From positions 124,001 to 188,000 of the forward strand of contig NZ_FRFA01000003.1 in the NCBI RefSeq assembly GCF_900143535.1: 64,000 nucleotides of DNA. The letters run 5' to 3'. This document shows, in pieces, positions 21,031 to 42,996 of this stretch. Under the pieces are notes generated by a model. The model did no database searches and was not told the DNA's origin. It saw only the letters and a program-made list of their open reading frames with translations. Source of the DNA: Tateyamaria sp. Alg231-49. Its GTDB lineage: Bacteria > Pseudomonadota > Alphaproteobacteria > Rhodobacterales > Rhodobacteraceae. The position numbers and the translations under genes are program-made. The number at the start of each line of letters is the position of its first letter. Position 1 is the stretch's first letter.

Positions 21031-21648
21031 ATGACACTCGACGAGGTTTGCGCACAGGTTCTTGCGCGCGCGCCCTCCCCATATCGGCGCCTCGTTGCCG
21101 TTGCCGGTCCGCCTGCAAGTGGCAAAAGCACTGTGGCCCAAGCACTGTCCGCGCGCCTGACAGCACAAGGTGAAGAGAGTGCGGTCGTGCCTATGGACGG
21201 CTTTCACCTCGACGACCGGCTGTTGCACGCGGACGGAACGCAAAACCGCAAAGGGGCACCCAACACTTTCGACGCAGACGGATTCGTGCGGATGATCAAG
21301 GCGCTGCAATCCCCTGACCCGGTTATCTACCCGATTTTTGACCGCAGCCGCGAAATTGCGATCGCTGGTGCGGGTCGGGTTCCGGCCACGTGCAGAACCG
21401 TTGTCGTGGAAGGCAACTACCTTCTGTTGCAGCAGCACCCATGGACCCAACTGCACGACCTTTGGACCCTGTCCATCGCGTTGAACCCTCCGATGGATCT
21501 GTTGATCGAACGGCTAAAAGCCCGCTGGGTCGAACATAGCAAACCAGATGCGCAAGCATGGATTGACACCAACGACGTACCGAATATCACGACGGTAAGG
21601 ACCAAGTCGGCCCCGGCTGACATTATCTGGACGGAGACATCCACATGA
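21031..21648 (+). CDS. frcK: FrcK-like P-loop kinase
   Basis: P-loop kinase of 205 residues related to uridine kinase/pantothenate kinase. Walker A is AGPPASGKST, followed by VPMDGFHLDDRLL, the nucleoside-kinase-type motif. In Sinorhizobium a homologous gene lies at the same position (frcK), but its substrate is unproven. It begins one base after the frcA stop and overlaps the fructokinase start by ATGA. Possible substrates are the imported sugar or a nucleoside. Confidence 0.8.
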   Translation: MTLDEVCAQVLARAPSPYRRLVAVAGPPASGKSTVAQALSARLTAQGEESAVVPMDGFHLDDRLLHADGTQNRKGAPNTFDADGFVRMIKALQSPDPVIYPIFDRSREIAIAGAGRVPATCRTVVVEGNYLLLQQHPWTQLHDLWTLSIALNPPMDLLIERLKARWVEHSKPDAQAWIDTNDVPNITTVRTKSAPADIIWTETST

Positions 21649-22568
21649 TCCTCTGCTGCGGCGAAGCCTTAATCGACATGATCCCGAACGAGGCCGGGGC
21701 CTATGTGCCTCACGTGGGTGGCGCCGTTCTGAACACGGCCGTGGCGCTGGGGCGTTTGGGCGTCACAACGGGGCTGATCACTGGCCTGTCGTCGGACCCG
21801 TTCGGCGCAATGATCGCCGAACATATGTCGGCCAGCCACGTCTCGACCGCCTACGCAGTGCGCAGTGCGCGCAACACGACGCTGGCCTTTGTGCATCTGG
21901 ACGAGGGGCAGGCCACTTACACATTCTATGACGAAGACACCGCGACCCGCGAGATTCAGCCTGACGATATCGACCCGGTGCCTTCTGACATCGAGGCAAT
22001 GTTCTTTGGCGGCATCAGCTTGTGCAACCCGCCTGTGGCCGACAGCCTGCTGACCCTCGCGCTTGCCCAGCCCGAGCGGCGGCTGGTGATGGCAGACCCG
22101 AATATTCGCCCCAGCTTTGTCTCGGATCATGAAGGGTACCGCACGCGTCTGAACGCTCTGATCGCGAGGGCAGACATCATCAAATTGTCCGATGACGATC
22201 TGAACTGGGTGATCCCGGGCGAGGCGTCGCTAGAAGACAAAGCCAAAGAGATTTTGACCCGCGGTCCCAAGATGTTCCTGCTGACCGAAGGGGGCGACGG
22301 AGCCACCGCCTATCTGCAAAGTGGTCGGCATTTGCATGTGCCTGCGCAAAAGGCGACTGTCGTGGACACAGTCGGCGCAGGCGACACGTTCAATGCCGGA
22401 TGCCTCGCCGCCCTGCGCAGCGAAGGTGCATTGCACCCCAGCGCCATCCCCGATCTGTCGGAATCCACTTTGCACCATATGCTGACAGTCGCCGCGCGCG
22501 CCGCTGCGATCACCGTGTCACGTGCGGGCGCAAATCCACCGTGGACGATGGAACTGAGCGACGACTAA
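21645..22568 (+). CDS. PfkB-family fructokinase
   Basis: Sugar kinase of 307 residues. The N-terminal GEALIDMIP and GGAVLNTAVALGRLG and the C-terminal DTVGAGDTFNAG (anion hole and catalytic Asp) are the two ribokinase/PfkB signatures. It closes the frc operon through an ATGA overlap and most likely makes fructose 6-phosphate. A 2-keto-3-deoxygluconate kinase cannot be excluded on motifs, but the context favours fructose. Confidence 0.88.
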   Translation: MILCCGEALIDMIPNEAGAYVPHVGGAVLNTAVALGRLGVTTGLITGLSSDPFGAMIAEHMSASHVSTAYAVRSARNTTLAFVHLDEGQATYTFYDEDTATREIQPDDIDPVPSDIEAMFFGGISLCNPPVADSLLTLALAQPERRLVMADPNIRPSFVSDHEGYRTRLNALIARADIIKLSDDDLNWVIPGEASLEDKAKEILTRGPKMFLLTEGGDGATAYLQSGRHLHVPAQKATVVDTVGAGDTFNAGCLAALRSEGALHPSAIPDLSESTLHHMLTVAARAAAITVSRAGANPPWTMELSDD

Positions 22569-22627: not shown

Positions 22628-22675
22628 TACACGTCCGGTGCACAGATTGTGCGTAGTCTGTGCACGCAATGTGAT
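22628..22675. repeat. Iteron-like TGTGCAC element, copy 1
   Basis: GTGCACAGA (22638-22646) and TCTGTGCAC (22657-22665) are exact inverted repeats. Read on the minus strand, CACAGACT, GCACAA and CTGTGCACCG occur in the same order and about 11-bp spacing as in the element at 41512-41548. It lies between two convergent clusters. Confidence 0.6.
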
Positions 22676-22734: not shown

Positions 22735-24003
22735 TCAGACAAAAGGCAAATAGTAGTCACGCACCTCGTCCACGGATTTGTCCTGCAACCGCTTCCATTC
22801 GTCCTGTTTCAGGAAGATGAGGGCATCACAAATCTCCTCACCCACGGCCATCCGCAAAGGCTTGTCTGCATCAAGCGCGTCCAGCGCGCGATCCAGCGCC
22901 GAGGGCACATGCCGCGTCGCCCGGACGTTTTCCAACCCATCCAGATCTTCGGCGTCCGGGATGGCATACCCGTTCTCAACCCCCAGCAGTGAGGCCTGCA
23001 AAACGGCAGCTACAGCCAGATATGGATTGGTCGCACAGTCGGCCATCCGATGTTCCAACCGGGCCGATTTGGGCGACGTCACGCAGGATCGTACCGTGAC
23101 AAGGCGGTGGTCATCCGCCCAGTTCGCCCAATACCCCGCCATAGATGCAGGCCCCAGCCGATCATAGCTGTTCACAGTGGTTGCAAGCAGTCCGGCAAGC
23201 CCCTCGTGGTGGTGGATCATGCCTGCGATGCAGCCCTTGGCCACGTCCGACAGCTCTCCATCGGGGGCGATCACATTGGCACCACTTTCGTCCGAGAAGC
23301 TGAAGTTGATGTGCATCCCCGACCCACCCCGATCCGGGATCGGCTTGGGCAGGAAGGTCAGCAATAGACCCAAGCCAGCGGCCACCTCGCGCGCCATGGT
23401 CTTGAACAGAAATGCCGCGTCACAGGCGGCCACCGCATCATCGAACTGCAACGTCAATTCGAACTGCCCGTTGTCATATTCTCCGTTCAATGAATCGATG
23501 CGCAGACCCGCCGCGGCCGCAGTGCTCCATAGCGCATCCATCAATCCCGCCGGATCGTTCTGTGGGCCCGTACCGTAGACAAATGCACCCGGCGTGTCAT
23601 AGGGCCCCCAAACCCCGTCAGCATCCTGCTGAAAGACGTAAGCCTCTAACTCCAAACCGACTTTTGGAGAGAGCCCCCGCGCTTGCCACGCCGCCACAGC
23701 CGCCTGCAAGCGCCCCCGCCCACACAGGCCAAAGGGGGCGTCATGGGTTTGCAGCGTGCCCAGCGCGATCTCGGTATCGGCTTGCCAACCCGAATGACGT
23801 GCGCCGTCCAGCGCCAATTCCATATCTGGGAGGCCGTCAAAAACCCCTGCCCCCGGCACTGGGATAAGATCGCGGTCAAATGTGGTGCCAAACACGCCCC
23901 GGGCAAAGCCAACCTTGCCTCCGGCCGCAATGTCCGTGGGGATGTATTTGCCACGCGGCAGGTTCAAAAGATCACAAAACAGAACACGGGTGCGATGGGT
24001 CAT
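22735..24003 (-). CDS. Glutamine-synthetase-family ligase (gamma-glutamylamide synthetase-like)
   Basis: ATP-dependent ligase of 422 residues belonging to the glutamine synthetase family. ATP/Glu-site motifs include GEYDNGQFELTLQ, GGSGMHINFSF, NSYDRLGP and KSARLEHRMADCATNPYLAVAAVL. It is shorter than housekeeping GlnA (about 470) and lacks an adenylylation Tyr segment. It therefore resembles the amine-using branch (PuuA, IpuC and the aniline TdnQ/AtdA1 proteins) that makes gamma-glutamylamides. The start at 24003 (MTHRTRVLF) is the first that leaves GS sequence only. It is the last gene after a P450 and a class I GATase, which supports amine rather than ammonia as acceptor. Confidence 0.8.
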   Translation of the reverse strand: MTHRTRVLFCDLLNLPRGKYIPTDIAAGGKVGFARGVFGTTFDRDLIPVPGAGVFDGLPDMELALDGARHSGWQADTEIALGTLQTHDAPFGLCGRGRLQAAVAAWQARGLSPKVGLELEAYVFQQDADGVWGPYDTPGAFVYGTGPQNDPAGLMDALWSTAAAAGLRIDSLNGEYDNGQFELTLQFDDAVAACDAAFLFKTMAREVAAGLGLLLTFLPKPIPDRGGSGMHINFSFSDESGANVIAPDGELSDVAKGCIAGMIHHHEGLAGLLATTVNSYDRLGPASMAGYWANWADDHRLVTVRSCVTSPKSARLEHRMADCATNPYLAVAAVLQASLLGVENGYAIPDAEDLDGLENVRATRHVPSALDRALDALDADKPLRMAVGEEICDALIFLKQDEWKRLQDKSVDEVRDYYLPFV

Positions 24004-24008
24004 GGGCG

Positions 24009-25229
24009 TCACTTTAATGTTGGGCGCAAGGTCAGCGATTTGACCCCGCAGATGAAATTCGAACGGGTCCAAGTGGGGGCGGCAGTGGCCTCCAGCCCGG
24101 TGATGCGGCCTGCCAACTCTTGCAGGACAACTTTCAGTTCCAGCTTGGCCAGCCACATGCCCAGACAGACATGCGGACCGCCCTGACCAAAGGCCATATG
24201 GCGGTTTGGGCTGCGGTCCAGATGGGCCGTGTGAGGATCTTTGAACATGGCCGCGTCCCGATTGCCGGACACAAACCACATTAGCACCTTGTCACCTTCC
24301 TTGATGGTCTCTCCGTGCATCTCGATGTCGCGCGTGGCGGTGCGGCGAAAATGCAAGGTGGGCGAGGCAAGGCGAATGAATTCATCCGCACAAGTGTCCC
24401 ATACGGCGCCCGATTGAAGCTGACCCAGAAGATCCTTTTGCTGTGTCAGCAGCCACAGCGCCATCGCAATGGAATAGCGTGTCGTGTCATTGCCTGCCGC
24501 CACAAGCAGACAAAAGAAATTCTTGAAATCCTGCCCCTGAACCGCTCCGCCTTCGGCACGCAGAACGCGGGCCAGAATACCCTCATCGTCAACACTGCGT
24601 GCGCCTTTTAGGATCTCTTCAGCATAATCATATAGCTCTACGCCCGCCGGAGAGCGGAAAGGCATCATGGCGTAGGCATCCGTGTTCACCTTGTCGATCA
24701 CGGTTTCGGTGAAATCCGGATCCGTATTGCCGATCAGCGCGTCGCCCCGTTCCACCAGCCAATCAAGGTCAGCGTCCGGCACCCCAAGGATGCGGCCCAG
24801 CATCAGCATCGGCAGGCGCTTGGCGATCAGGTCGATCCCGTCAAATTCGTCGTGTTGCAGCGCCTGATCCACAATGTCGCGGGCAAGCTCTCGGATTACA
24901 GGTTCAAACCCCGCCATCACTGGCTTTGCAAATGCCGGATTGACCACGCGTCTGGTGGTCGAATGCTCAGGCGGATCGGTTTCCTGAAACGTACGGCGGG
25001 CCATGTATTCGGCGTGGCTCTGATCTTCGATCCGGATGCCTTGGGCGCTGGAAAAGGTGGTTGGTTCTTTTTGCGCGGCCATAATATCGGCGTAACGGGT
25101 CAGCGACCAAAAGCCCTTGTCGGCCCCAAATTCCGGCGTCCAATGCACCGGGGCCTCACTGCGCATCTGCGCAAAGGTTTCATGGGGCACCCCGTCGACA
25201 AAGCTGTCGTGATCGGCCAGATTTTTCAT
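24009..25229 (-). CDS. Cytochrome P450
   Basis: Soluble haem monooxygenase of 406 residues. The start at 25229 has an ideal GGAGGT site and overlaps the GATase stop (ATGA). The I-helix proton-relay motif is AAGNDTTR, the ExxR motif is EFIR, and the haem-thiolate motif is FGQGGPHVCLG, the spacing variant seen in the CYP124/125/142-like bacterial group. No ferredoxin or reductase gene is nearby, so electrons must come from elsewhere. Position between ligase-like and amidotransferase-like genes suggests it oxidises a gamma-glutamylated amine; this is inference. Confidence 0.88.
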   Translation of the reverse strand: MKNLADHDSFVDGVPHETFAQMRSEAPVHWTPEFGADKGFWSLTRYADIMAAQKEPTTFSSAQGIRIEDQSHAEYMARRTFQETDPPEHSTTRRVVNPAFAKPVMAGFEPVIRELARDIVDQALQHDEFDGIDLIAKRLPMLMLGRILGVPDADLDWLVERGDALIGNTDPDFTETVIDKVNTDAYAMMPFRSPAGVELYDYAEEILKGARSVDDEGILARVLRAEGGAVQGQDFKNFFCLLVAAGNDTTRYSIAMALWLLTQQKDLLGQLQSGAVWDTCADEFIRLASPTLHFRRTATRDIEMHGETIKEGDKVLMWFVSGNRDAAMFKDPHTAHLDRSPNRHMAFGQGGPHVCLGMWLAKLELKVVLQELAGRITGLEATAAPTWTRSNFICGVKSLTLRPTLK

Positions 25230-38741: not shown

Positions 38742-39944
38742 ATGGTCTTCCGGTACCAAAAAGTGGAGAGCAGGCGGCTGCTTCTGCGCGAGATTTCCCA
38801 GCGCGGCCCACTGCCACGCATCGATCTGGCACACCGAACGGGAATCAGTCGGGCCACTGTAACCTCCATAACGGCCGAACTTTTGCGCGGTGGATTGATC
38901 GAAGAAGTCCCGCGTGATTCGAGCGGGGATGAGGCCACGCGCGGACGGCCACGGATTGATTTGAAAATCTCTGGACAGGCCCATCTGATCGCAGGGTTGA
39001 AGGTATCGGACACCTCGATCTCGATGGTGCTGATGGACTTTGAAGGGGCAGACGTGGCTTTGCATGAGCACGAAATTGCACCGCGCCACTATACGCCCGA
39101 AGCGCTAGCACTAGAGGTCTTTGACGGGCTGACCCGACTGGCCGAAAAGGCAGGTCGTACCCTGTGCGACATCTCGGGTGTGGGCGTTGGTCTGGCCGGT
39201 ATCGTCGATGCTGGCAACGGGTTGGTCTATTGGTCCCCCTCGCTGGATCGGCGCAACGTTCCCTTTGCAACGGTCCTGAGTGAGCGTCTGGGCATCGCAG
39301 CATATGTGGACAACGATGCAAACCTGGTCGCCATGGCCGAGATGACATTTGGCATCGGCAAAAACCATTCGGATTTCATCGTCATCACCATTGAAAGCGG
39401 TGTTGGCATGGGCATGGTTCTGGGCGGCCAGCTTTACCGGGGGACACGCGGATGCGGGGCCGAATTTGGCCATACCAAAGTACATCTGGACGGCGCCCTG
39501 TGTCGCTGTGGCCAACGTGGGTGCCTTGAAGCCTACGTGGCGGATTACGCGCTGGTGCGCGAGGCCAATAGTGTCGGCAATGTCGCGCAGATGGCACAAA
39601 CCTCCAAGGCTGTGACCGCCGTGCTTACTGCTGCCAAAGAAGGTGATCCGATGGCACGCACGGTGCTGGAACGCGCACGCAAGATGTTTGCCCTTGGGCT
39701 CGCAAACCTCGTCAATATCTTTGATCCAGAGCTTGTGATCCTTGCAGGTGAGCAATTGCAGTTTGACCATCTCTATGCCGACAGCGTCATTGAAGAAATG
39801 CGCAAGAGTATCGTCGATGTGGACAAACTCCCGCCAGAGGTTGTGGTGCACCAATGGGATGCCTTCATGTGGGCGCGGGGTGGTGCGGCATATGCCCTTG
39901 AATTTGTGCAGGATACGGCCGTTGAGGCGTTGCAGGATGCATAA
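38742..39944 (+). CDS. xylR: ROK-family xylose regulator
   Basis: ROK repressor of 400 residues. The winged helix includes RIDLAHRTGISRATVTSITAELLRGGLI. Unlike the regulator near 17 kb, it keeps the zinc site: GAEFGHTKVH followed by CRCGQRGCLE. The start at 38742 (MVFRYQKVESRRLLL) is chosen for its AAGGG site; an ATG at 38712 would add ten residues. It is divergent from xylF and overlaps the next gene by 8 bp. The name rests on location; the ligand is probably xylose. Confidence 0.85.
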   Translation: MVFRYQKVESRRLLLREISQRGPLPRIDLAHRTGISRATVTSITAELLRGGLIEEVPRDSSGDEATRGRPRIDLKISGQAHLIAGLKVSDTSISMVLMDFEGADVALHEHEIAPRHYTPEALALEVFDGLTRLAEKAGRTLCDISGVGVGLAGIVDAGNGLVYWSPSLDRRNVPFATVLSERLGIAAYVDNDANLVAMAEMTFGIGKNHSDFIVITIESGVGMGMVLGGQLYRGTRGCGAEFGHTKVHLDGALCRCGQRGCLEAYVADYALVREANSVGNVAQMAQTSKAVTAVLTAAKEGDPMARTVLERARKMFALGLANLVNIFDPELVILAGEQLQFDHLYADSVIEEMRKSIVDVDKLPPEVVVHQWDAFMWARGGAAYALEFVQDTAVEALQDA

Positions 39945-41436
39945 GCCGCTTTTGTGTGCCATCGTGCTGATGGGCCAATCTGCCTTGGCGGATACTCCAC
40001 TTTTTCAACCCGTCAAAGTCCCCCATCACGTTTATGATGGCGGATGGGAACATTTTGTCGGCGGTGGTCTTGCCGTGTTCGACTGTGACGACGATACGCG
40101 CCCGGAACTGGTGGCGGCAGGGGGCAGCAACCGACCGATCTTGCTGCGCAATACGTCGACGCCCTCAGGTGCCGTGCAGTTTGAAGAGGCCACGCCGCAA
40201 GCTTTCGATCTGACTGGATCGGTTGGGGTTTATCCTATCGATATGGACAATGACGGCCTGCTTGATCTGGTTGTTTTGCGCGTAGGTCCTGACGCCGTTC
40301 TGAAGGGTTTGGGGAATTGCGATTTTGAACCCATGGCGTTTGAGACAGGCGATCATTGGTCCACCGCCTTTTCGGCCACTTGGGAAGAGGGGCAATCTCT
40401 GCCCACTCTTGCCTTTGGTCACTACGTAGACCGTTCGGACCCGGATGGACCGTTTGAGGCTTGCGATGTGAACCACCTCTGGCGGCCCACAGCCTCCGAC
40501 TATGTCCGCCAAGACCTTGCCCCTGGTCATTGTGCGCTATCAATCCTTTTTACAGATTGGGATCGCACGGGACGCGCCGACCTTCGGGTGTCCAACGACC
40601 GCCACTACTATGTGCGCGACGGCGAGGAACAGCTTTGGGCAATGGAACCAATACCTAGGTTGTACACCGAAGATGAAGGTTGGGCGCGCCACATGCTTTG
40701 GGGCATGGGTATCGCCACGCGCGATCTGGATCGGGATGGACGGGACGAGGTGTTTCTGAGTTCAATGGGCGATCAACGCCTGATGCGCAGAACCGGGGAC
40801 GGGCCCGCCTTTTCTGACGTACCTTTCGCAACCGGAACCGCTGCCCAACGCCCGTATATAGGCGATGATGGCCGCCCATCGACCGGGTGGCATATCGCCT
40901 TTGGCGACGTGAACAATGACAGGCGCGATGATGTGTTCATCGCCAAGGGCAATGTGCAGCAGATGCCCGGTAATGCGATGGAGGACCCCAATAATCTGTT
41001 GATGTCGCAAGACGACGGACGCTTTGTCGAAGCGGGTGATGTGGCCGGTATCGCCTCGGTGCATCGCGGGCGCGGGGCAGCGCTGGTGGATCTGAATGCG
41101 GATGGATTGCTGGACCTTGTGGTGGTCAATCGCCGCGCCCCGCTCGAGGTTTGGCAGAACGCGAGCACTGGCACGGGCCATTGGTTGAGCGTTGATTTGC
41201 GCCGCGCAGGGGCGAATACGCACGGCGTCGGTGCATGGGTTGAGGTCGATGACGGCACGTCCGTGCAGGCCCGGGAGATCACGGTTGGTGGCGGGCATGC
41301 CGGTGGCGTGGCAGGGCCGCAGCACTTTGGGCTGGGCGATGTTGAGACGGTGCGCCTGCGCGTGCGCTGGCCCCACGCAGACTGGTCGGACTGGCGCGAC
41401 GTGGGCGTCGATCAGGTGGTGGTTGTTAATGAATAG
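39937..41436 (+). CDS. CRTAC1-like FG-GAP/VCBS repeat protein with ASPIC/UnbV end
   Basis: Exported protein of 499 residues; the signal peptide ends at SALADTP. Several calcium-binding-type beta-propeller repeats can be read (IDMDNDGLLDLVV, RDLDRDGRDEVFL, GDVNNDRRDDVFI, VDLNADGLLDLVV). The C-terminal part (AGANTHGVGAWVEVDDG, then GPQHFGLGD and VRWPHADW) is an ASPIC/UnbV domain. Function in bacteria is poorly known. Its ATG lies within the regulator's last codons, so it is translationally coupled to xylR. It is convergent with a di-haem peroxidase gene. Confidence 0.8.
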   Translation: MHKPLLCAIVLMGQSALADTPLFQPVKVPHHVYDGGWEHFVGGGLAVFDCDDDTRPELVAAGGSNRPILLRNTSTPSGAVQFEEATPQAFDLTGSVGVYPIDMDNDGLLDLVVLRVGPDAVLKGLGNCDFEPMAFETGDHWSTAFSATWEEGQSLPTLAFGHYVDRSDPDGPFEACDVNHLWRPTASDYVRQDLAPGHCALSILFTDWDRTGRADLRVSNDRHYYVRDGEEQLWAMEPIPRLYTEDEGWARHMLWGMGIATRDLDRDGRDEVFLSSMGDQRLMRRTGDGPAFSDVPFATGTAAQRPYIGDDGRPSTGWHIAFGDVNNDRRDDVFIAKGNVQQMPGNAMEDPNNLLMSQDDGRFVEAGDVAGIASVHRGRGAALVDLNADGLLDLVVVNRRAPLEVWQNASTGTGHWLSVDLRRAGANTHGVGAWVEVDDGTSVQAREITVGGGHAGGVAGPQHFGLGDVETVRLRVRWPHADWSDWRDVGVDQVVVVNE

Positions 41437-41458: not shown

Positions 41459-41485
41459 GTTAACCCCTATTTTATAGAGGTTAAC
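41459..41485. repeat. AT-rich inverted repeat
   Basis: GTTAACCCCTA and TAGAGGTTAAC (one mismatch) flank TTTTA. It follows the CRTAC1-like gene and contains two TTAACC-type half-sites, resembling but not proven to be CtrA-type sites. Confidence 0.45.
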
Positions 41486-41511
41486 GGCGTGAAACGGGGA
41501 TGCACGGGGCC

Positions 41512-41548
41512 TACACAGACTGTGCACAACCTGTGCACCGTTCATACA
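41512..41548 (+). repeat. Iteron-like TGTGCAC element, copy 2
   Basis: Successive units CTACACAGA, CTGTGCACAAC, CTGTGCACCGTT and CATACACCGAT recur every 10-12 bases, and GTGCACA/TGTGCAC form a perfect inverted repeat around ACC. It matches copy 1 (22628-22675, opposite strand) at most positions of the core. Confidence 0.6.
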
Positions 41549-41691: not shown

Positions 41692-42996
41692 CTAACGATC
41701 TATCGGTAGCCCGCTAGGCACCGTGTCTGGAACGCCGAGTGCACCACGCACGCTTTGCGGATCGGTAAGCGCATTGAGGAAAGCGATGATGTCCATCACT
41801 TCGCCGTCGCTGAGCGACTGAGGCGCCAGCACATTGGCAGAGGCGATTGCGGCCAGTTCTGCGGGATCGGTCAAAACACGCAGATCATCGGCTTTTAATC
41901 CCGGCAGGATCGCCTCGTTGATATCGTAGGATCTGAGGCTCGCCACCGGATCAAGATGATGGCGCACCACCCCTTCAAGCGTGGCATAGGCCCCCGTGTG
42001 TCCGTACGGTGCCGTTTGCTCCACGTTGCGCAATGGCGGCGTGCGAAATGCATAGGCATCCGCCGGATCACCTGTCACCCGCATCCGGCCGGTGTCCCGC
42101 GCATGGCTTTCAAACCGTGCGGCCTTGCCCGGCCCGATCTGCGGCATCGCGATAGCGTGAAAATCGTGATCCGTCTGGAACCTGCCGGAATGGCAGGCCG
42201 CGCAGTCGGCCTTGCCATAAAACAGGTCCATCCCGCGCATCGCGGCGGGCTCCATTTCAGTGCCATTGCGCAGGTAGAGGTCAAAAGGGCTGGCCACGCC
42301 GCGCCATTCGAAATCGAGGAATGCCGCAAGCGCATCGGAGATGTCGGTGAAGGCAATTGCCTCTGTCCCGATCACCGCGTCAAAGCGCGTGCGGTACTCC
42401 GGGATCACCTCGACCCGTTTGGACAGGATATCCCATGCGCCGCCTTCACCCGTGAGCAACCCCTGCCGCACGGCCTGAGCGACATCGTTTTCCGCGTAAT
42501 GCCCGGCCATTTCGTCCGGAGACAGGACCGGAAACATGGATTGCGCAGACAAAGCAGAGGCAAAGCCTGCCTCCATTTCTGAGCCAAGCGGTGTGCGGAT
42601 GCCGGAAGGGCGGTTGGCGTCTTCTTCCAACCGTCCGTCGTGGAAAAAGACGGTGAATTCCGCAGCGCCAAGGTTGAACAAGGGTGGTGCGTTCCGTGGA
42701 ATGCGTTGTTCGGGCAGGTTGTCCGCATCCACAGTGCGGTCTGGGCCAAGCCCGCTGCCGCCATCGCCCAAGCCCAAGGACACCCCATCGCCTGTGGCGT
42801 GCTTGGGGTGGTGGCAGGTGGCGCAGCTGACCGTTTTTGATCCCGACAGAATGGGATCGTAAAACAGCAGTTGTCCCAACTCGATCTGCGCACTGGGATG
42901 GTCAGGAAAGACAGGCTCTTCATAAGGCAAATCAGCCGCCCAAAGCGGGCCGGTGATCAGGCCGAACGCGACTGCCTTAAACGAAACGCGAGACAT
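41692..42996 (-). CDS. Di-haem cytochrome c peroxidase/MauG-family protein
   Basis: Periplasmic protein of 434 residues with signal peptide ending near GPLWAAD. Two haem c motifs are present: CATCHHPKH and CAACHSG. The segments FHDGRLEED and [27 protein letters not shown] are typical of the bacterial CcpA/MauG superfamily. It could reduce peroxide or modify a partner protein; I cannot assign the distal haem ligand from sequence alone. Its start overlaps the last 20 bases of xylA, so it is probably cotranscribed with the xylose genes, an odd pairing. Confidence 0.85.

Follow-up and report, generated by a model that had tools for sequence, protein, structure and literature searches.

Two intergenic sequences in the window, as the whole 64,000-nucleotide stretch of DNA analysed here is termed, raise the question of whether they are copies of a single element and, if so, what recognises that element. 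The features concerned are as follows.

22633..22675, minus strand: copy 1, a four-unit array with CAC at 22673, 22662, 22651 and 22640; matrix score 49.4
41500..41542, plus strand: copy 2, a four-unit array with CAC at 41503, 41514, 41525 and 41536 and a fifth at 41547; matrix score 58.4
21645..22568, plus strand: PfkB-family carbohydrate kinase gene left of copy 1, context outside the element
22735..24072, minus strand: glutamine-synthetase-like gene right of copy 1, context; its earliest-start open reading frame reaches 24279
39937..41436, plus strand: predicted gene left of copy 2, context
41692..42996, minus strand: predicted gene right of copy 2, context, with CATCH and CAACH haem-binding-like motifs in its translation
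41459..41464, plus strand: GTTAAC word 41 bp ahead of the copy 2 array, read in the sequence; similar words lie beside many arrays of the genus
41480..41485, plus strand: second GTTAAC word ahead of the copy 2 array, read in the sequence

Each copy lies in a convergent gap, and the likeness of copy 1 to copy 2 reaches ∼56 nt in an ungapped alignment. The 27-mer CACAGACTRYGCACAAYCTGTGCACCG is present without mismatch in copy 1 (22636-22662, minus strand) and copy 2 (41514-41540, plus strand), by construction, because the pattern was composed from both copies; the real test is provided by the shuffle control and by the whole-genome and genus searches. If up to 3 mismatches are tolerated, the window still holds these two places alone, 100 dinucleotide shuffles gave none, and the whole genome of the window (G000, 39 contigs) contains 3 places. 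The two matching sites of the preliminary description are therefore confirmed by the shared 27-mer, the control and the searches, its spacing of 10–12 bases being narrowed to a CAC period of exactly 11 bp in both copies. Its TGTGCAC-type unit is corrected in one respect, the units being directional, with GTACAC beside GTGCAC; a plain TGTGCACA palindrome was rejected on this ground. An orthologue of copy 1 is found at G014:C2:253477 with flanking genes and orientation kept, and orthologues of copy 2 in G002, G007 and G014. The sequence GTTAACCCCTATTTTATAGAGGTTAAC at window positions 41459-41485 forms an inverted repeat directly ahead of copy 2.

Judged by sequence comparison, the two window copies are members of a dispersed family of 11-base-phased arrays across Rhodobacteraceae genomes. 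Family arrays consist of four to five direct units, YGTRCACAnCC, with the consensus (A)TGCACAnCCCGTRCACAnCCTGTGCACAnCCYGTGCACCG. The core pattern with up to 3 mismatches was detected in 7 of 20 genomes of the genus, with a maximum of 14 in one, the reversed control giving 0 in all 20. A profile of 75 positions, built from 28 aligned of 30 genus sites with training sites drawn from 6 of the 20 genomes, matched 17 of the 20 (E≤0.05, both strands counted), including 11 of the 14 genomes not used in training; G008 and G012 gave one weak match each, at chance level, and G006, G009 and G010 gave none at this threshold. In G000 this profile yielded 22 matches at E≤0.05, several being one site on both strands, and 6 sites reach a matrix score of at least 35. 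Among 149 family genomes, which we assume to be G000, G010 and G020-G166 in agreement with their handles, 21 were matched at E≤0.001 with stricter filters, G125 being counted through an unrelated array. The exact two-unit pattern occurs in 20 of 394 family genomes, its reversed control being 0 throughout, and 5 of these 20 owe their match to that unrelated conserved array. A scan of named genomes with one exact 20-mer returned 17 stretches, from Tateyamaria (5), Roseobacter (2) and Paracoccus (2), from Yoonia, Loktanella, Maritimibacter, Sulfitobacter, Leisingera and one further member of the Rhodobacteraceae, and from actinobacteria, the two actinobacterial matches having low matrix scores and looking like chance.

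The unrelated GTGCAC array, observed with conserved flanks (∼AGCTCCGATTCCGGGGCAT...TGCCCTCC) in five genomes (G066, G338, G090, G125 and G348), has matrix scores of -2.7 to -8.0 (loci L041, L050, L054, L055 and L058) and is hence a different element.

Context was examined at 123 loci, of which 12 scoring below 35 were removed, leaving 111 sites. Between genomes of the genus, 150 site pairs sharing one or both flanking genes have the same orientation and 0 are flipped. Between genera, shared flanks mostly agree in orientation, with one flank flipped in Maritimibacter L100 and at G310 L063. In 64 orthologous pairs with both flanks shared and both scores at least 40, the CAC and GT positions are 0.94–1.00 identical, the exceptions being the variable R (0.56–0.92) and the leading T and G of the first unit; spacer columns are 0.34–0.78 identical and flank means lie at 0.43–0.52. 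This confinement of orthologue conservation to positions at the 11-bp repeat suggests that the arrays are protein sites. The earlier reading, in which the element is dispersed, bound by a protein and not part of a gene, is thus supported, since only 5 of the 111 strong sites fall within predicted genes and constraint is seen only at the 11-bp positions; the motif also proved to be enriched in intergenic DNA of related genomes. An element acting at the RNA level, such as a terminator, a rut site or a structured RNA at gene ends, might be supposed from the many sites that come after stop codons and from one strand being C-rich with an 11-nt phase. However, ten loci gave no match in Rfam, one fold had a z of +0.5, the covariation term in 8 aligned repeats was unfavourable (+0.38), and orientation is independent of gene direction (25 same and 29 opposite in tandem gaps of the genus), so that we regard this explanation as highly improbable.

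The partner of the arrays is, very probably, a small, fast-evolving, solitary ribbon-helix-helix (RHH) protein resembling the BrnA antitoxin. A top-scoring, widely shared site lies upstream of the small gene encoding it in G002, G007, G014, G017 and Roseobacter 34-3Z, and homologues of the gene adjoin sites in G403 and G066. Within the genus the best conserved site is the one upstream of the RHH gene, present at 11 of 12 loci with a gene or remnant, the remnant locus of G019 having no site upstream; in other genera, profile matches lie directly upstream of the gene in G030, G037, G066, G092 and G403. The protein is ∼115–140 residues long, with a predicted beta strand K-T-R-V-T-L-R-M-D in G017, and three proteins score 45.6, 47.5 and 46.3 bits in their RHH segment against Pfam BrnA_antitoxin (PF14384; cut-off 26.1). 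A weak single-sequence structure model (mean pLDDT 64) places a strand (51-55) before two helices (59-68 and 70-91) and adds further N- and C-terminal helices. A fold search with this model gave no match at E≤0.001, and a sequence search of solved structures with the RHH protein gave none. While the RHH segment is thus like BrnA, the loci are unlike a BrnT/BrnA module in the extra terminal helices of the weak model, in the dispersed sites and in the missing toxin, BrnT being absent among 8 neighbour proteins at 5 RHH loci and not recognised by eye at 24 loci. At 12 of the 24 loci (for example L303, L307 and L313) the divergent neighbour resembles prfC (release factor 3), a likeness checked with Pfam at L295 and by eye at the other loci.

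An upstream survey of 70 family RHH genes comprised the 30 best-ranked, the next 37, and those of G037, G084 and G113, added for their profile matches; G230, with a stop in the gene, was left out. An 11-bp three-unit repeat lies within 260 bp upstream of 46 of the 70 (shuffle p≤0.01), or 45 of 67 without the three added genes, the other 24 of the 70 being without a significant array. In the first 30 genes, period 11 was significant in 20, and each of the periods 7–10 and 12–16 in 0–2. Presence of the gene corresponds with presence of dispersed matches. The RHH protein has a match in 13 of the 20 genus genomes, that of G018 being only a 32% relative, and the frame is intact in 8 of 12 (G001, G003, G004, G005, G011, G014, G016 and G017). 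Profile matches number 6–59 in the 12 genomes with a gene or remnant and 0–9 in the 8 without (p 4e-4, or 0.005 without the six profile-building genomes); the ranges are 9–59 with an intact gene, 6–58 with a broken gene and 0–9 with no gene. In the family, where a relative at E≤1e-8 was found in 125 of 394 genomes, a set that will include other BrnA-like proteins too, the gene is found in 14 of 17 genomes with at least 2 matches compared to 43 of 132 others (p 1e-4 with G125 excluded, 4e-5 with its unrelated array counted). Against the pairing, array matches occur in G069, G158 (26 matches) and G166, where the RHH search found nothing at E≤1e-8; two of these genomes, G158 and G166, are fragmented drafts. 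If the pairing is true, a toxin-less antitoxin-type protein has come to bind DNA across whole genomes of a large marine family; we know of no such role for BrnA-like proteins. Nothing on the arrays or on a solitary BrnA in Rhodobacteraceae was recognised in the open-access PMC literature, judged by title or abstract.

The words of the upstream arrays vary between lineages, taking in GTRCAC, ATGCAC, CGTATGG, GTATGAC, GTCTGG, GGCTGC, GTCTTGC and others. From the upstream word, dispersed CGTATGG arrays were predicted in G068, G124 and G086, the prediction being recorded before the search. CGTATGG-N4-CGTATGG (up to 1 mismatch, both strands) gave 35, 23 and 205 matches in these genomes, respectively, the number of arrays being smaller because each match is a unit pair; nine other genomes gave 0 in seven and 1 in two, and reversed controls 0–2. 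The word also varies with the protein. Among 78 genes (70 family and 8 genus), the DNA allowed 53 to be assigned to a class, TGG (10), ATRCA (10), GGCTG (3) or GTRCA (30), and 25 were not classable. Strand position 3 is Lys in 10 of 10 genes with TGG (TATGG/TCTGG) arrays and Arg in 43 of 43 of the other classes (p 5e-11); at position 7, Arg is missing with ATRCA arrays in 10 of 10 and present with GTRCA in 30 of 30 (p 1e-9), or 29 of 29 without the tie G227, otherwise counted as GTRCA. These p-values are too small, because the classes were drawn after seeing both arrays and residues and shared ancestry is ignored. In the 25 unclassed genes, position 3 is Lys in 10 and Arg in 10. Array word and two strand residues thus covary, with 0 exceptions in the 53 classed genes, and the two positions are presumably two of the three base-contacting positions, by analogy with Arc. 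If the pairing holds, this natural series of words and strand residues would serve as a ready-made recognition code of RHH proteins, and would show a protein changing its specificity in step with tens of sites, a kind of evolution usually considered difficult.

The same variation bears on a reading of the arrays as clusters of low-affinity DnaA boxes in 11-bp steps that titrate the replication initiator. Weak boxes do occur in 11-bp direct arrays at oriC of E. coli, and the array units have CACA in common with the box TTWTNCACA. The consensus unit YGTRCACA nevertheless has no TT/A part, ordinary boxes such as TTTTCCACA are seen around the likely oriC of G002, array matches are lacking from 3 of 20 genus genomes though DnaA is taken as universal, and other lineages carry unrelated words that covary with the RHH protein. 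Titration of DnaA is accordingly scarcely credible as an explanation.

From the arrays with their phase and constraint, the upstream array, the co-occurrence, the predicted second motif and the covariation, we infer a mechanism in which RHH dimers would bind cooperatively as neighbours along a single face of the helix, each dimer occupying an 11-bp unit, which its beta strand would read in the major groove. The array upstream of the RHH gene would probably mediate autoregulation of that gene. At the remaining arrays, a few to several tens per genome and intergenic beside unrelated genes, the protein may mark or compact the chromosome in the manner of MatP or SegB, a role as organiser that we put forward tentatively as the likeliest, with global regulation close behind. 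Such a role is favoured by the position of the sites beside unrelated genes, by their enrichment in convergent gaps and by the likeness to SegB.

Gene context weighs this role against a second one, in which the same RHH binder would be an ordinary global transcription regulator controlling the genes adjoining the arrays, with sites at convergent ends accidental or acting on antisense or read-through transcription. Gene calls came from a simple purpose-built codon model, so that context labels are approximate. Both neighbours could be called for 105 genus sites, which divide into 33 convergent, 54 tandem and 18 divergent; the background, 78 gaps no shorter than 50 bp from 20 randomly chosen stretches of G002, divides into 8, 47 and 23, respectively. 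The convergent enrichment (odds ratio 4.0, p 6e-4) involves sites that are not independent, as the 111 sites represent 48 orthology groups, of which 16 are convergent. Regulation is consistent with the array upstream of the protein's own gene, with the divergent and tandem gaps, and with G086, where 14 of 19 arrays are tandem, several of them 13–35 bp before the next start codon; it is this mostly tandem placement that favours regulation. In contrast, no promoter is expected in the convergent gaps, which are in four-fold excess over background, tandem-gap arrays lie closer to the upstream stop (median 65.5 bp) than to the downstream start (106.5 bp), orientation in the genus takes no account of gene direction, and the neighbours, inspected by eye, are unrelated housekeeping genes, for example lepA, valS, dnaJ and radC. 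We consider a regulator a possibility to be taken seriously, if a somewhat doubtful one. The suggestion that copies mark convergent gene ends therefore stands as an enrichment in the genus and fails as a rule, 2 of the 19 arrays in G086 being convergent. In the latter genome (L391-L410), CGTATGG arrays are opposed to gene direction in 11 of 14 tandem gaps, compared to 29 of 54 in the window's genus.

Comparison with known systems provides partial parallels for the chromosome-marking role. In the ParR/parC plasmid centromere an RHH protein binds ∼11-bp tandem direct repeats beside the ParM gene; here a similar pairing is predicted, with many chromosomal arrays instead of one centromere per plasmid and no ParM-like neighbour seen. 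MatP has an RHH fold and ∼23 matS sites, single short palindromes confined to the terminus. The common feature is an RHH-type protein for which some tens of sites are known or, here, predicted at separate places on the chromosome; unlike matS, four- to five-unit arrays here extend over the entire G002 chromosome. The role of MatP/matS in the Escherichia coli chromosome is treated in PMC7858052, which also describes how ZapT of Caulobacter binds chromosomal DNA and organises the terminus; ZapT is likewise alphaproteobacterial but, according to the same text, belongs to the MerR family, unrelated to the RHH protein, and was rejected as array binder on this basis (PMC7858052). There is likeness, too, to SegB of archaeal SegAB, an RHH protein whose sites lie both ahead of the cassette encoding it and at tens of further places around the chromosome, S. 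solfataricus having 46 motif sites (PMC12284271); here the RHH protein likewise has predicted sites upstream of its own gene and tens more on the chromosome. According to the same source, most SegB sites lie within genes and cluster near segAB, and SegB pairs with the ATPase SegA (PMC12284271); the arrays here are intergenic and tandem at 11 bp, and no partner ATPase was seen among the neighbours of the RHH gene.

Along a 3.86-Mb contig of G002 the sites are spread between 72 kb and 3.74 Mb and are thus not confined to one macrodomain. All listed G002 matches are on this contig, C1, which is weak evidence for restriction to the chromosome because C1 constitutes ∼90% of the genome. As to replication strand, the other check proposed in the preliminary description, co-directional sites are in excess in G002 (21/29, p 0.024) and G017:C1 (17/19, p 0.0007), and G014:C2 gave 6/11, counted by eye; with many sites shared by descent, polarity along the replichores is only suggestive. 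In G068, GC skew is too weak for placing an origin. A gap at G002:C1:3300682-3301092 with the DnaA-box-like words TTTTCCACA and TAATCCACA, ∼3.5 kb from parS, is likely oriC.

Many arrays have further words beside them. GTTAA/TTAAC words lie beside them on the left at 59, on the right at 65 and on both sides at 50 of the 111 sites, compared to 3 of 70 control windows. Both words are in range at 38 sites; there the left word is 31 bp ahead of the core in 32 and the right word 16 bp past the core in 20 and 26–27 bp in 13. TTAA-N7-TTAA (up to 1 mismatch), which we take to be the CtrA consensus, occurs in 33 of 111 right windows, 9 of 111 left windows and 1 of 70 controls. A layout of ∼180 bp is common to 20 of the 111 sites, with information dropping sharply beyond its edges. 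The arrays could accordingly be, for the most part, the conserved central section of an intergenic repeat, mobile or MITE-like, that spread by duplication, with the RHH protein as its tamed or parasitic companion. The fixed layout with sharp edges, in ∼8 orthology groups by our own reading, the constant spacing of the GTTAAC boxes, and their absence from 160 kb of random G002 sequence, bar one match with 3 mismatches, are in keeping with this. However, the full layout is missing from 91 of the 111 sites, only the GTRCA units are conserved across genera, and orthologous sites hold place and orientation between species and so give no sign of recent movement, making a mobile origin unlikely. REP/BIME and MITE are dispersed intergenic repeats, some composite, whereas the core here is a phased array with a word covarying with a protein, not a hairpin. 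An extrachromosomal source was likewise rejected. The exact 25-base array pattern has 0 matches in viral contigs, a plasmid search with 61 bases around copy 2 found nothing at E≤10, and the RHH protein gave 1 weak match among 72,556 plasmid records; 8 viral RHH relatives, with no 11-bp array upstream, looked like ordinary BrnA behind another ORF.

Combined, these observations lead us to propose, with some reserve, that a domesticated antitoxin gave rise to a chromosome-marking system in Rhodobacteraceae, in which the RHH protein would coat scattered arrays, partly set in the ∼180-bp repeat with its GTTAAC and CtrA-like words, and help to organise or segregate the chromosome, its specificity having switched repeatedly with the sites of each genome following, and lineages being found in active, recently broken and eroding states. 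The gene is broken differently in four genomes of the window's genus.

G000:C25:53157-53384 (L301): RHH remnant with two stops, in the window's own genome
G002:C1:2929007-2929360 (L291): broken RHH gene, one TAG
G007:C6:136014-136355 (L292): broken RHH gene, stop in the first third
G019:C1:228375-228641 (L300): broken RHH gene, two TAG

Strong arrays remain in G002 and G007, which speaks against the pairing, and the four differently broken genes, with these lasting arrays, are a natural loss series. If the pairing is true, genomes with intact, freshly broken and long-lost genes permit direct tests of site function. In the window's genome the sites are evidently eroding, as in 11 of 12 groups they score lower than the orthologues from G014/G017 (p 0.0015). 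Because the RHH gene is broken in their own genome, the two window copies are probably relics of a recently lost system, and with scores of 58.4 and 49.4 they rank among the better preserved.
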